From the IMG/VR virus record IMGVR_UViG_3300018432_000001, positions 62,001 through 126,000 of that record: a stretch of DNA of 64,000 bases. One strand, given 5' to 3'. A model generated the notes under the pieces. That model worked only from the letters and a program-made list of their open reading frames with translations, ran no database searches and was not told the DNA's origin. This document shows positions 2,678-62,294 of the stretch, piece by piece. The position numbers were made by a program, and so were the translations under genes. This DNA is from a virus. The first letter of the stretch is position 1. Every line of letters begins with the position of its first letter.

Positions 2678-4192
2678 CTAGAAGAGGTCCGTGGTGGCCC
2701 AGTCGACCGGGTCGGCGTGGATGCTGATCCCGATCGGCGGTTCGATGACTTCGCCTCGTCCGTATCCAGATCCCTTGAGGAGTCCTTGTGCGAGGTAGAC
2801 CGTGGCGTCGATGCGTCCGGGGCTCTCTCGGGAACCGGGCTGCCAGGTCGTCCACTGCTGGATGAGCTTGTCATGTTCGCCTACCAGGCGGATGTCGCCT
2901 TGTACCCAGTATTGGGCAACGGGGTCCGCGCGAATGCGTTTTCCGTATCGGGCGCGAACTTCATCTATTCGGGGGATGGGGACATCAGGCGGAATGGCAC
3001 CGTCTTCTTCCAGATCGGACCATGCTGACTGGATCTGGAGCTTGCACATCTCGCCGCCGAAGTTCGTCTCCACGAAGATGACGTCGGCCATCAGCTCGTA
3101 GGACAGGAGGGCGACCTCGCGGGCCCATTCGGTGGGGCTGGCCTGGCGGGACTTGTCGTCGGTGATGTAGCAGCGGTTGTCGTCGCCGAGGAATCCGGCG
3201 ACGATCCCGGCTTCGTCGCCGCCTGCGGTGCCGGAGGGGTCGACGGCGACGGCGACGCGGAGCTTGTCGGGGAGTGGTTCCCCGGGGCGGTGGCGGGATG
3301 CTTCGATCTGTTCGAGGTTGAGCAGGGCGCCCTCAACGGGCTGGGGGTCGCACTGGAAGAGGGCGAACCAGTCGCGCTTGGACAGCGAGGACTGTAGGCC
3401 GCCCCAGTGGGCGAGGAGCGCGTTCTTGTCCTTGTGAGGGATTTTCGGGTGGCCGAGGGGTTCGCCGAGGGCGCGGCCGAGCGGATCGTTCGCGTCGACG
3501 GCGATCGCCGGGAGGCGGATGATGTCCCACTCGTCGCCTTCGCGTTGCAGGAGGCGACCGGCGATGTCGTCTTCATGCCAGCGGGTGAGGACGAGGACGA
3601 TGGGTGCGCCGGGGGAGCCTCGGGTGATGAACGTGGAGGTCCACCAGTGGTCGACGGCGTCGCGGAAGATCTTCGATTCCGCTTCATCGCGGTCTTTGTG
3701 AGGGTCGTCACAGATGAGTAGGTCGCCGTCATGGCCCGTGAGGCCCGAGCCCACGCCGACAGTTTTCATGCCGCCACCGGCAGTGAGTTTCCAGGCTTGG
3801 GCGGTCCGCTGCTCCGGGGAGATGGTCAAGCCGAGCTTGTGGCCGTGCTCGCGGACGGCCTTGCGGACGTCGCGGCCCCAGTTCTTGGCCAGGTCTGAGC
3901 CGTAAGCGGCGGCGACGACCTGGTGGTGGGGACGATGGGCGAGCCACCACAGCGGGAACTTCTTGGTGACCAGTTCGCTCTTGCCGGTGCGAGGCGGCGC
4001 GAAGATCATGAGCTTGCGCTTGCCGCCGGGCTGGCCCAGCCGCGCCAGGCGCTCGCCGATGAGGCGGTGGTGGGGGCAGATCTGATAGCGCGGTTCAAGC
4101 CACGCGCCGAGACTGGCGGGATCGTGAAGGGCCTGGACGCGCGCGGCGTAGGCGTACAGCTCCGCGTCAGACAACTTCGAAAGATCCGGCAT
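2678..4192 (-). CDS. terL: Terminase large subunit
   Basis: This 504-residue protein is the DNA-packaging motor. Its N-terminal ATPase domain has a Walker A motif (APPRTGKS, residues 65-72), a Walker B motif (LLICDD, about 158-163) and a coupling motif (TRWHEDD, about 203-209). The C-terminal RNase H-like nuclease domain opens with the metal-binding Asp of AVDPSG (Asp318). The ATPase hydrolyses ATP to push DNA into the prohead, and the nuclease cuts concatemers. Length and domain order are normal for the family. It lies on the strand opposite to the portal, and no separate small terminase is evident in the window. Confidence 0.96.
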   Translation of the reverse strand: MPDLSKLSDAELYAYAARVQALHDPASLGAWLEPRYQICPHHRLIGERLARLGQPGGKRKLMIFAPPRTGKSELVTKKFPLWWLAHRPHHQVVAAAYGSDLAKNWGRDVRKAVREHGHKLGLTISPEQRTAQAWKLTAGGGMKTVGVGSGLTGHDGDLLICDDPHKDRDEAESKIFRDAVDHWWTSTFITRGSPGAPIVLVLTRWHEDDIAGRLLQREGDEWDIIRLPAIAVDANDPLGRALGEPLGHPKIPHKDKNALLAHWGGLQSSLSKRDWFALFQCDPQPVEGALLNLEQIEASRHRPGEPLPDKLRVAVAVDPSGTAGGDEAGIVAGFLGDDNRCYITDDKSRQASPTEWAREVALLSYELMADVIFVETNFGGEMCKLQIQSAWSDLEEDGAIPPDVPIPRIDEVRARYGKRIRADPVAQYWVQGDIRLVGEHDKLIQQWTTWQPGSRESPGRIDATVYLAQGLLKGSGYGRGEVIEPPIGISIHADPVDWATTDLF

Positions 4193-4210
4193 AACCCGAA
4201 TCTACCTGAA

Positions 4211-4233
4211 TGTCCGTTTTATTCAGCTATGAG
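4211..4233 (+). promoter_or_regulatory. Late control element, copy 1
   Basis: The sequence TGTCCGTTTTAT is followed at offset 16-17 by the -10-like TATGAG. It points rightward, away from the terminase, into a gene-free region rich in hairpins. The same element precedes several virion genes. Confidence 0.55.
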
Positions 4234-4235
4234 AC

Positions 4236-4550
4236 GAGTGCGCCGCGCTGCCATCGAGGTTAGAGCCGTGAAGCAGCGCGGCGCGTAATCTCCCGCGCAG
4301 AAACCCCTGCGCAGCCTGCACGGCCGTGTCCGATGCACGCCGTGCACGGCAGGGTCCCACCCTGCGATCTGCGATTGCGCCGGGCGCCCCGCCTGAACGT
4401 CGGGACCATCGGAGCCTCCGATGCTACCTGGAGGTGTGGCCTCACTGGTGAGCGCGTCACTTCTCACCGCACCCAGCGTCTGGGCTAACGTCCGGCTCCC
4501 CCCTTGCGCGTAGGGGGCCGACTGGCGGCGAGACCACGGTATGCCAGCTA
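4236..4550 (+). ncRNA. Candidate structured non-coding RNA
   Basis: About 315 bases contain no convincing ORF but a chain of hairpins. These are a 12-bp stem (4240-4251 with 4273-4284), a 6-bp stem (4295-4312), an 8-bp stem TGCACGGC/GCCGTGCA (4317-4346), CAGGGT-CCC-ACCCTG (4350-4364), ATCGGA-GCC-TCCGAT (4408-4422), GGTGAG/CTCACC (4447-4468), CCCAG-CGT-CTGGG (4472-4484), a bulged 9-bp stem (4493-4520) and CTGGC/GCCAG (4522-4547). The late element at 4211 would start a transcript at the first stem. It does not match tRNA, tmRNA or RNase P RNA signatures known to me. High GC makes short stems common, so the claim rests mainly on the 12-bp stem, the density and the upstream element. A packaging-site role at the DNA level is an alternative. 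Confidence 0.4.
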
Positions 4551-4556
4551 CCTGGT

Positions 4557-4799
4557 TTATAGCATCTGGTCAGGGGCGTTGCTCAGCCACAAGCCGAACT
4601 CGGTGGTGCCTTCGGCGTGCACGCTGGAGTGGCTGACCATCCACATCAGCGCGGCTTGGCGCGTGTCGGCCGTGGCACAGGCACTGCACGAGCTGCGCCC
4701 CTGGCAGCAGATGATCACCGGATAGCAGTATCCGATGTCGTCGAGCAGCCGGTTGAACGACCACAGGGGACTGCCCACCAGCAGTGCGTCAGGGTTCAT
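4557..4799 (-). CDS. Small Cys-containing hypothetical protein
   Basis: The product has 80 residues with several Cys (YPVIICCQG, CSAC). It starts 11 bases inside the preceding gene, as part of a tightly packed leftward operon. The ribosome binding site is weak (CAGGGC), consistent with translational coupling. No family is recognised. Confidence 0.5.
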   Translation of the reverse strand: MNPDALLVGSPLWSFNRLLDDIGYCYPVIICCQGRSSCSACATADTRQAALMWMVSHSSVHAEGTTEFGLWLSNAPDQML

Positions 4800-5148
4800 G
4801 CCCTGATCCTAAGCGCGGAGGTGGCGCGGTGAGGTCGTCTTCGCGGATGAAGTAGGCACGCGGCGCCGTCCACCACGCGATGGTCTGACCGCCGTCGCCG
4901 GTGAACGGCGCCTCGCCGTAGAGCACGAACACACCCGGGGCCACCGTGATGTACCCCTGGGGTGGATCGCTGCCATAGTCGTCCCGGTCGCGGCGACCCA
5001 CGTGGATCTGGATGCCCGGGTCGAGCTTGCCTTCCATGTCGGTGGCCCAGTCCGCCAGCCGCAGCATCAGCCGGGACTTCAGCGCGGGAGGACACACTAG
5101 GGTGATCGGCGGCTGGAACAGATAGGAATGGTCGACCTGCTCGCTCAC
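4789..5148 (-). CDS. Hypothetical protein, GTG start
   Basis: The product has 119 residues. The GTG at 5146-5148 is preceded by GGAGG at good spacing and overlaps the upstream stop as GTGA. The sequence looks like a compact beta-rich fold (YITVAPGVFVLYGE, TIAWWTAPRAYFI). It resembles the product of the next gene upstream in length and general pattern (both contain a DYG or QYG-P-F segment followed by a TI-W/R-W motif), so the two may be distant paralogues. Function is unknown. Confidence 0.65.
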   Translation of the reverse strand: MSEQVDHSYLFQPPITLVCPPALKSRLMLRLADWATDMEGKLDPGIQIHVGRRDRDDYGSDPPQGYITVAPGVFVLYGEAPFTGDGGQTIAWWTAPRAYFIREDDLTAPPPRLGSGHEP

Positions 5149-5492
5149 ATGACCTCCGGATCTTTGAGGAGGTCGGCGGCCGTGATCGTGAATGATGGGC
5201 TGTGGAACAGCTCGTGCCACCAGCGCCAGCGGATCGTCTTGCCCCGCGAGGTGAACGGCAGCGGCCCGTACTGGTCGAGCATCGGTGCTTCCAGCGTCCA
5301 GTAGGCCATGCCACTGCAGCCGCAGGAGGAGCCGGTGCGGTAGTGCAGGCGCACATCCGTGCGGCCCTCGGAGGTGGCGCACCACGAGACCAGCGCCTGC
5401 GCGAGACGCTGTTTCACTGCTTTGTCCTGCGGCAGGAGTTCGATCAGGCGCGGATCGCGGCGCACCGATACGGACAGCACGGGATCTCTCAT
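5145..5492 (-). CDS. Hypothetical protein, possible paralogue of its neighbour
   Basis: The product has 115 residues. It starts at the ATG overlapping the HIT gene stop (ATGA) and ends in the GTGA overlap with the next gene. A Cys cluster (SSCGCSG) lies mid-protein, and the segment QYGPLPFTSRGKTIRWRWW resembles the corresponding part of the downstream gene product. The tight overlaps on both sides support a real gene. Function is unknown. Confidence 0.65.
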   Translation of the reverse strand: MRDPVLSVSVRRDPRLIELLPQDKAVKQRLAQALVSWCATSEGRTDVRLHYRTGSSCGCSGMAYWTLEAPMLDQYGPLPFTSRGKTIRWRWWHELFHSPSFTITAADLLKDPEVM

Positions 5493-5911
5493 GACTGCTC
5501 CACCTCGGCAGGCGTCGGTGTCCACGGGAGCACGATTCCGTCGCCTTTGCTTCTGGGCAGGTAGTGCAGATGGAGGTGGTCGACGGTCTGGGTCGCTTCG
5601 GCGCCGACGTTGATGATGAGGTTGAAAGGTCTGCGCTGGGCAAGGGCGTACTGCCAGGCGGCCATCCACATGTACGCGGTCGGCGAGTGGCTGACGGCGA
5701 CGCCGTGGTCTTTGGTGACGTGCAGGCGCGGGATGAACAGCACGTGGCCCTCGACGCGAGGGTTGAGGGGGACGATCGCGATGGCGTTGGTGAACTTGGC
5801 GACGACCTGGGCGGGCGCCTGACCGGTGATGATCTGGCAGAACGGGCACGGATCGCTGGAGCGGGCGTCCCCCTCGGTGGTGCTCGCTGCTTGACTGGAC
5901 GCCCGCGTCAT
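5489..5911 (-). CDS. HIT-family (histidine triad) protein
   Basis: The product has 140 residues. The triad HLHLHYLP (HxHxHxx type) lies near the C-terminus, and an N-terminal CPFC pair with the segment HVLFIPRLHV is typical of HIT nucleotide hydrolases and transferases. These enzymes cleave or transfer nucleoside monophosphates through the middle His. The start at 5911 was chosen for its ATGA overlap with the upstream stop. A longer reading from 5962 is possible. The natural substrate in a phage is not predictable. Confidence 0.85.
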   Translation of the reverse strand: MTRASSQAASTTEGDARSSDPCPFCQIITGQAPAQVVAKFTNAIAIVPLNPRVEGHVLFIPRLHVTKDHGVAVSHSPTAYMWMAAWQYALAQRRPFNLIINVGAEATQTVDHLHLHYLPRSKGDGIVLPWTPTPAEVEQS

Positions 5912-6306
5912 GCTCCTGCTTCCACAGTGTATCCGATCGATTCTCGCGTCCACATCGAACATGGACCGGTCGTGTCGATGAGGTGATACTCACCGGATTC
6001 GACGATGCCGCCGGTGGCCAGCGGGTGGCGCTGGAGCCGCGCGCAGGCCGCGATGCCGATACGAGGCCGCGCGCCGGTACGTCGCTGGCGGGCAAGGTAC
6101 CGCTTCGCGCAGCGGCGCTCGGCCTTGGTCGTGCGCGGTTCGCACAGCAGCCCGGCAGCGCGGAGCTTCGGGCCGAGGACGTCGGTGAGGCAGGCGGACA
6201 GCTGCTCGAAAGAGTCCTGCAGGCCCTGAACGGCATCGCCCAGCGCCTGCCCCACGGTATGGAGGTACGCCCGCAGGGACGCGAACGGCATGTTTGAATC
6301 GCTCAT
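5908..6306 (-). CDS. Hypothetical protein
   Basis: The product has 132 residues with a helical N-terminal half (QALGDAVQGLQDSFEQLSACL) and a basic middle (TTKAERRCAKRYLARQRR). It is the first gene of the run of four-base overlaps that includes the HIT protein. No family is recognised. The basic segment suggests nucleic-acid contact, but only weakly. Confidence 0.6.
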   Translation of the reverse strand: MSDSNMPFASLRAYLHTVGQALGDAVQGLQDSFEQLSACLTDVLGPKLRAAGLLCEPRTTKAERRCAKRYLARQRRTGARPRIGIAACARLQRHPLATGGIVESGEYHLIDTTGPCSMWTRESIGYTVEAGA

Positions 6307-60247: not shown

Positions 60248-60781
60248 TCAGGATTCGACGCTGGCCGCTTCAGCAGCTTCCAGCTCCGCGATCTTAGCCT
60301 TGGCAAGCTTCTCGTTCTCCACCATGGCGTCCCACGCGGACAGCAGCTTCTCGCCGTCCAGCGCCTTCGGCTCGTAGGTGCGCAGATTGAAGCCGGTCAG
60401 GACGACCGGCCCGAACACCGGGGTGCCGTGCTGGAAGGGGGTGCGCGTCTCGTTCGCGATCAGCATGGCCGCGACCGCGTTGAACCGCTCGGGGTCGGCG
60501 CGGTGGTAGTCGGCGGTGTTGCAGAAGTACGCGTGCCCGCTGGCGCGGAACTTGAAGACCGTGTCGGCGTCGCCGCCGGTGACCTTGTCGAAGAACGCGA
60601 ACCAGTCCCGGTGGTCGTCGCCCAGGCCGACCTTGTCGCAGTCGTAGAGGGTGACGTGCCGTTCCAAGTCGATGACCATGATCGGGCGCGCAACGACCGC
60701 GAGGGTGTCGCGGAAGACGGGGTCGTCGATGGCCACCTGGCGCGTCGGCTCGGTCGCGGGGATTTCGGGGGTCTCAGACAT
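60248..60781 (-). CDS. Hypothetical protein downstream of the helicase
   Basis: The product has 177 residues. The ATG at 60781 overlaps the helicase stop by eight bases, so the two are coupled. An alpha/beta core (VVARPIMVIDLERHVTLYDCDKVGLGDDHRDWFAFFDKV) is followed by a helical C-terminus (LLSAWDAMVENEKLAKAKIAELEAAEA). No family is recognised. It may assist the helicase. Confidence 0.68.
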   Translation of the reverse strand: MSETPEIPATEPTRQVAIDDPVFRDTLAVVARPIMVIDLERHVTLYDCDKVGLGDDHRDWFAFFDKVTGGDADTVFKFRASGHAYFCNTADYHRADPERFNAVAAMLIANETRTPFQHGTPVFGPVVLTGFNLRTYEPKALDGEKLLSAWDAMVENEKLAKAKIAELEAAEAASVES

Positions 60782-62294
60782 GGTCGCCTGCTTTCTTGAG
60801 TTCACGTTGGTACCAGCGTTGCAGCTGGTCTTCGGTCGCCTCACCGGCGAGGTAGTCGTCGATCCAGGCGATGGCCTGGTCGTCGAGGTGCTGCTGGGCG
60901 CGGGTGACCGCGACGTAGCACAGCTGCAGCAAGGCGGGGTCCATCGGACGCAGCTTCCCTTCGCCGTCCAGTGACGGTTCGGGGAAGTCGGCGCCGATCT
61001 TGACCCGAGGGTACTGCAGGCCCTTGGCGCCGTGCCCGGTCATGACCGTCAGATCGACCGGTCCCTTGTCGGTGTCCTTGAACTGCTTGGCGATCTTCAG
61101 CAGCTGGGCGGCACCCCACTTCTCGACCAGGCGCACGAACACGGCCAGTTCACCGGCGGTCGGGTCGGACTCGACGTAGTGCAGCACCTCCCGCCAGGAG
61201 CCGAACGTCGCCAGCTCGGGGTAGTCGCATTGCAGTCCGGCCTGCAGGTCCAGGGCCGCTTTGCACATCTTCTTGATGTTGTCCGACACCCGCTTGGCCA
61301 TGCCGACACGCCGCCCGGCCACCAGCGCCGTGTGGGCGGCCTCGACGGCACCGGAGTTGGTGCGGCACAGGATGACGTCGGGCTCATGCAGGGGGCCGAC
61401 CGTTCCACCGTCGCCTCGGCCCCTCAGGCGCAGGTCGCAGTCGAGGGCGGCCAGCCACTGGTTGGCGCGGTCGGCGATGGCCGGACCGAACCGGAACGAT
61501 TCGGTGAGGCTCAGGCGCTGGTCGGCGGGCCACTTCGCGAGCGCGTCCTGGGCACCGCGCCAGGCGTACAGGGTCTGGTTGACGTCGCCGACGGCGATGA
61601 GTTGGCACTGCTGGCGGGTGAGGACGTCGAGCATGAGCGCGTCGATGTCCTGCCCTTCGTCGAGCATGATGAAGTTGACCTTGAGCTTGGGGTTCTTCAG
61701 TGCCCACATCTTCCGGTAGTGATCGTGGGTGAATTCGGCGCGGTCGGAGTGGGGGTCTTGCAGGTCGGTCCACATGGCTTTCGCGAACGGCAGCACGTGC
61801 GCTTTCAGCGCCTTGTGGGCGTCGGGGTCGATGCCCTCGACGGGGCCCACGTGCCAGGCGGTCAGCTCGCGGTCGGCCGAGCGCGCGAAGCGCTGCACCG
61901 CGAGCTTGGCGAGGATGGCGACGCCGATGGAGGTGATGGTGCGGTCGGGGGCCGGGGCGAACGGTTTCGTGCCGAACGCGTCGGCCAGCTGTGCGCCGTT
62001 GCGCCCGGTGTCCCGGCCGCTCCAGCGGCGCGCGTAGTGGCGGCCGACGTCCATGGCCACGCTGTGGCTGGTGTGGCATTCGACGGTGCCGGGGAAGTGT
62101 TGCTTCGCGTCGGCGCGGTTGTTCTTGCCGAACGCGATGTACAGGCCCATCTTCAGGCGCCGCTCTTTGGCTTGGGCGCCCAGCAGCAGTGTCGCGGTTT
62201 TACCGGTTCCGGCCAGGGCCTGCACGGCGACGTTCTTGCCTTCCTCGATCGCGGTGACGATCCGGTCCTGCTCATCGGTGGGCGTGAAGGTCAT
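60774..62294 (-). CDS. UvrD/FBH1-like superfamily 1 helicase
   Basis: The product has 506 residues. SF1 motifs stand in order: the Q/N-terminal region FTPTDEQDRIVTAIEEGKNVAVQALAGTGKTAT (Walker A AGTGKT), a Walker B variant MLDEGQDID, motif III VGDVNQTLYAWRGA, motif IV SFRFG, motif V VMTGHGAKGLQYPRV and motif VI YVAVTRA. It is shorter than UvrD (about 720 residues) and closest in style to FBH1-like helicases that strip recombinase from DNA. It should unwind DNA 3' to 5' in phage replication or recombination. Confidence 0.9.
   Translation of the reverse strand: MTFTPTDEQDRIVTAIEEGKNVAVQALAGTGKTATLLLGAQAKERRLKMGLYIAFGKNNRADAKQHFPGTVECHTSHSVAMDVGRHYARRWSGRDTGRNGAQLADAFGTKPFAPAPDRTITSIGVAILAKLAVQRFARSADRELTAWHVGPVEGIDPDAHKALKAHVLPFAKAMWTDLQDPHSDRAEFTHDHYRKMWALKNPKLKVNFIMLDEGQDIDALMLDVLTRQQCQLIAVGDVNQTLYAWRGAQDALAKWPADQRLSLTESFRFGPAIADRANQWLAALDCDLRLRGRGDGGTVGPLHEPDVILCRTNSGAVEAAHTALVAGRRVGMAKRVSDNIKKMCKAALDLQAGLQCDYPELATFGSWREVLHYVESDPTAGELAVFVRLVEKWGAAQLLKIAKQFKDTDKGPVDLTVMTGHGAKGLQYPRVKIGADFPEPSLDGEGKLRPMDPALLQLCYVAVTRAQQHLDDQAIAWIDDYLAGEATEDQLQRWYQRELKKAGDHV

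Follow-up and report, generated by a model that had tools for sequence, protein, structure and literature searches.

The window analysed here is a stretch of 64,000 nucleotides, comprising bases 62001-126000 of a 142,477-bp IMG/VR virus record. Its portal and tape-measure proteins gave low-identity matches to phages of actinobacteria, and the record belongs to a large uncultivated phage, probably with an actinobacterium as host. The region of interest is a gap (4193-4556) flanked by the gene for the terminase large subunit, TerL (2678-4192, minus strand), and by a small ORF (4557-4799, minus strand). TerL, 504 aa in length, was assigned by PHROG (phrog_38, E 1.9e-83) and Pfam (Terminase_6N). 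Three of its residues, Asp318, Glu375, and Asp462, which from knowledge of the motif we take to be the acidic nuclease positions, were invariant in eight relatives. Searches of viral contigs with TerL gave ten relatives with identities of 96, 95, 94, 86, 84, 73, 71, 62, 62, and 47%, and in addition two more distant ones. Other minus-strand genes nearby encode a HIT-domain protein (5489-5962, Pfam E 3e-15) and two adjacent small proteins (4789-5147 and 5145-5495), which share a PFT...I-W-W motif and are likely paralogues; for the latter two, neither Pfam nor PHROG gave a family with a useful score.

The initial annotation had described the gap as free of any convincing ORF and rich in hairpins. 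Indeed, no ORF is conserved in it, the reading frames differing among relatives, and the perfect 12-bp stem described there is present at 4240-4251/4273-4284. Compared to dinucleotide shuffles, the gap folds with a z of -5.3 on the plus strand and -3.2 on the minus strand. The 12-bp hairpin alone has a z of -3.9, and the two conserved domains, taken without this terminal stem, were no more stable than their own shuffles. Since the folding excess of the gap seems to reside largely in the hairpin, and the domains alone show none, folding energy is poor evidence at this locus and comparison between phages was needed.

Judged by such comparison, the gap beside TerL contains a real conserved structured noncoding RNA. 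The whole predicted RNA is kept in the four closest TerL relatives, L002-L005. Their alignment with the window (five sequences, approximately 233 nt), which corresponds to about four lineages since L002 and L003 are near-identical, contains 65 pairs in 10 helices and two domains, with 97.8% of the structure cells paired. Two-sided, i.e., compensatory, changes were found in 11 pairs, a count matched in 7 of 500 shuffles. The covariation score was 0.245 against 0.136 in the shuffles and was reached by none of the 500, an excess of compensatory change over shuffled controls by which structured noncoding RNAs are recognized in general. The clearest exchanges were GG/CC to CC/GG in helix P3 and AC/GU to GA/UC in helix P4.

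In two further relatives, L006 and L008 (TerL 84% and 71% identical), the RNA is bracketed by TerL and a homologue of the 119-aa gene. The covariance model R2, which covers the 3' half, matched the same site in both, with divergent and significant copies (E 4e-8 in L006 and 8e-6 in L008), and the whole-RNA model R1 gave weak matches (E 1e-6 in L008 and 3e-4 in L006). With these two included, the alignment of the 3' domain, domain B, comprised seven distinct rows with 94.1% of cells paired and two-sided changes in 17 of 28 pairs (0/500 shuffles), although rows fitted to the model lean towards the structure. Domain A, searched with model R3, was found only in G000-G003, four close lineages, and was not detected in L006 or L008. 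The RNA is absent at the corresponding place in L007, L171, L172, and L009, and the 7.4-kb contig of L007 (TerL 73% identical) holds no copy at all. The sample of homologues consists of approximately six lineages, four of which are close to one another, and the comparison of their sequences shows that all six share the site of at least the predicted 3' domain. In L006, a second and weaker domain B match (3032-3150) was seen just upstream of the better one, and tandem RNA modules are possible there. We had also considered L006 as a circular permutation, with a domain B-like part before AGCTGGCA...CCAGTCG, but this was dropped, as the better domain B match, farther downstream, follows the usual order.

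The variable pairs were used for assigning the strand. Read on the minus strand, the whole core has 13 G-U versus 5 A-C cells, all of the latter in distal P2, and domain B has seven G-U and no A-C cells; these cells are partly non-independent, L002 and L003 being near-copies. The covariation term of RNAalifold was -5.16 on the minus strand versus -0.96 on the plus strand. As the one-sided changes are mostly G-U pairs on minus, where plus would read A-C, and as RNAalifold agrees, we favour an RNA encoded on the minus strand and read leftwards in the direction of TerL, from about 4549 to 4240.

The gap had been proposed to yield a dedicated noncoding transcript, driven by a copy of a repeated late element that points into it. 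The covariation in related phages bears out the structured RNA beside the terminase, but the strand and the promoter of the proposal were wrong. The copy of the element, ATGTCCGTTTTAT, is an exact match on the plus strand (4210-4222) and does point into the gap; however, it is situated past the 3' end of the predicted RNA, antisense to it and within the promoter region of TerL, while the RNA has a putative promoter of its own at 4556-4564. The underlying repeat, ATGTCCGNTTTAT, occurs in the window in ten copies with at most two mismatches, all on the plus strand (4210, 8727, 10879, 13247, 13274, 16595, 23730, 27593, 28702, and 35879), where about two would be expected (0-4 copies in ten first-order Markov sequences), and is a candidate phage-specific promoter. 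Several of the copies immediately precede genes on the plus strand, and a TA-rich hexamer often follows 17-18 nt from where the element starts. A plus-strand late transcript starting from the copy at 4210, antisense to the minus-strand RNA, would agree with the exactness and direction of this copy, with a TATG 18 nt from its start that is kept in L002-L005 at the spacing of other copies, and with the plus-strand folding z of -5.3. We regard it as improbable, since the one-sided changes that form wobble pairs on the minus strand are A-C mismatches on plus, and since L006-L008 retain the element next to unrelated DNA.

The same copy overlaps a conserved block, AATAAAACGGACATTCAGGTAGATTCG (4197-4223, minus strand), situated directly before the TerL ATG and kept in L006-L008 (TerL 71-84% identical) despite diverged flanking DNA. 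It includes a putative -10 box, TAGATT (4199-4204), 6 nt from the ATG, which presumably fits a leaderless actinobacterial promoter; the block is a putative promoter of this kind for TerL.

The predicted RNA gene comprises approximately 310 nt (4240-4549, minus strand), with ends that we infer from where conservation starts and stops; the gene itself is supported by covariation. Its first part, domain A (4434-4549), consists of a long-range helix P1 (4537-4528/4445-4436) enclosing the hairpins P2 (4522-4513/4500-4490), P3 (4485-4480/4476-4471), and P4 (4468-4463/4452-4447), and compensatory changes were found in all four. A possible pseudoknot helix in the same domain, UGGC (4546-4543) with GCCA (4526-4523), has invariant pairs, and a search of the unpaired columns for further tertiary helices gave nothing beyond it except weak 4-bp candidates. 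Domain B (4317-4434), the part with covariation in seven rows and with homologues found by model R2, contains helices P5 (4434-4430/4419-4415), P6 (4406-4401/4391-4386), P7 (4365-4361/4353-4349), and P8 (4345-4336/4328-4318), as well as outer pairs at 4412-4410/4382-4380; all of these helices are read on the minus strand.

Before the RNA lies a putative extended -10 box, TGCTATAA (4556-4564, minus strand), which is invariant in the window and L002-L005. It is kept even in L005, which has a replacement for the small ORF that elsewhere overlaps the box with its stop codon. Conservation of the RNA begins 6-7 nt past this box, as expected for a start of transcription, and we therefore place a putative start near 4549. 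A consensus scan found neither a sigma-70 -35/promoter pair nor a U-tailed terminator for the RNA gene.

Conservation stops with the perfect 12-bp GC stem and its 21-nt loop (4240-4284, minus strand), a terminator-like hairpin with no U tract which closes the 3' end of the predicted RNA. The arms are invariant across the five aligned sequences, and the loop has the opposite orientation in L004/L005: between the window and L005, 19 of 21 loop positions are identical if one loop is inverted, compared to 11 of 22 if it is not. By this comparison 4240-4284 is a segment that behaves as a small invertible one, a perfect repeat with a loop flipped between related phages. Compensatory changes in this very stem had been proposed earlier as a check on the RNA. 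None exist, and because the arms never vary and the loop is inverted between lineages, such a test is uninformative here. The flipping of the loop within a perfect inverted repeat is a DNA-level event, and together with the nearness of the packaging genes it is what speaks for a DNA-level element (a packaging site, an origin, or a recombination site) in place of an RNA gene. The asymmetry between G-U and A-C cells and the compensatory changes in most helices favour selection at the RNA level, and make a purely DNA-level element a minor alternative with little probability.

The probable explanation, in our view, is a self-contained gene for a noncoding RNA, which lies on the minus strand, starts near 4549, comprises two domains, and ends at the GC hairpin. 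RNA polymerase would start near 4549, after the extended -10 box, and the transcript would fold into the multi-branched domain A, closed by P1, and into domain B. Transcription would stop at the GC-rich hairpin of 12 bp, short of the putative promoter that belongs to TerL itself. A weaker part of this reading is that the RNA, as a stand-alone structured molecule, may act in trans by binding a protein or RNA of the phage or of the host.

The strongest competitor to the self-contained gene, in our view still rather unlikely, is a cis-acting leader, in which the RNA would be a 5' untranslated region or attenuator controlling whether transcription of the small genes upstream continues into TerL. 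This would fit its location on the same strand and directly upstream of TerL in the window and L002-L005, and the terminator-like hairpin at its end. However, a conserved promoter-like block belonging to TerL itself lies 6 nt before the ATG, and the surroundings of the RNA are not constant. L005 has different ORFs in the interval from the 119-aa gene to the RNA; two ORFs separate the RNA from TerL in L006; and in L008 a U-tailed intrinsic terminator stands between them. Because the RNA persists in these three phages despite the altered surroundings, a stand-alone RNA acting in trans is favoured over a leader of TerL. The two small ORFs inserted in the RNA-TerL interval of L006 (3299-3852), the first of which weakly resembles ribbon-helix-helix proteins, are possibly a toxin-antitoxin-like pair.

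The initial annotation also drew an analogy to the packaging RNA (pRNA) of phi29, which sits as an RNA ring on the prohead and is required for packaging. Like the RNA here, pRNA is a small structured phage RNA; the one here adjoins a packaging gene. A part in the DNA-packaging motor would agree with the location beside TerL and with domain B being similar in size to functional pRNA, which has 120 nt (PMC11476376). In phi29, the partner of pRNA is a TerL (gp16) that no longer functions as a nuclease, and pRNA has been described as unique to phi29-like phages (PMC11476376). The TerL of the window is instead Terminase_6-like (phrog_38, Terminase_6N), not a phi29-like gp16 ATPase without functional nuclease, and its residues Asp318, Glu375, and Asp462 are kept. 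In addition, a putative small subunit, TerS, is encoded at 60743-61336 (plus strand) of G000, 664-1257 bp to the left of the window, with homologues in G001, G002, and G006. It was assigned by position only, as a homologue (28% identity, E 1.4e-23) of the protein whose gene immediately precedes that of TerL in L171, and had no Pfam match. The RNA is moreover separable from TerL in L006 and L008, and it is missing at that place in L007, L171, L172, and L009. The analogy is thus weak, and a pRNA-like function very improbable. Scarcely more credible, though a little less remote, is a new class of RNA machine, in which the 310-nt two-domain RNA would assemble with a phage or host factor late in infection and might serve in assembling heads, or in packaging beside a conventional terminase of TerS and TerL.

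Other phage RNAs were compared by their descriptions. Abundant noncoding RNAs without known function are also encoded by the actinobacteriophages D29, L5, and StarStuff (PMC5712189) and WC1 (PMC10986025), but those are known from RNA-seq and mainly from genome ends, whereas the present RNA is known from conserved secondary structure beside TerL. The ornate RNAs GOLLD and ROOL resemble it in being stand-alone, multi-helix, and without known protein partner; they differ in being often located near tRNA islands and, in the case of GOLLD, often longer than 800 nt (PMC12286853). Rfam, including GOLLD and ROOL, gave no match at the gathering threshold in the gap, the best sub-threshold E being 0.96. 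A resemblance of AGGGTGGNACC to a T-box was rejected, as Rfam gives no T-box.

A DNA search with the gap in 50,697 phage records gave no match. Viral and genome contigs were also scanned with three patterns. Among the matches listed for AAGTGACG..GGTAGCAT, at least 119, there was no new member by model R1, nor was there any among the 25 matches to AATCGCAGA..ATCGGACAC or with CCGGCGYAATCG..GCARGKTG; the best R1 score over the three scans, among the matches listed, was E 0.34. Model R2 found no copy in 200 genomes of the Rhodococcus order, a search with stricter filters and no positive control. By these searches the predicted RNA is a new, previously uncatalogued family. Few families of phage noncoding RNA have evolutionary proof of structure. 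This one is absent from Rfam and, at the DNA level, from approximately 50,000 phage records; it retains its position although the genes around it differ, and both its fold and its strand can be tested. Transcription, if it occurs, would make it a new class of actinobacteriophage RNA, whose partner could be fished for directly.

Between the RNA and TerL of L008 (5690-5960), a 13-bp GC stem and the U-tailed terminator occur together with a weak Rfam match, to Scr3920 (E 0.0026; 27.2 bits, where the cut-off is 88), that partly overlaps the RNA; the window has no Scr3920 match. This part of L008 is possibly a second RNA.
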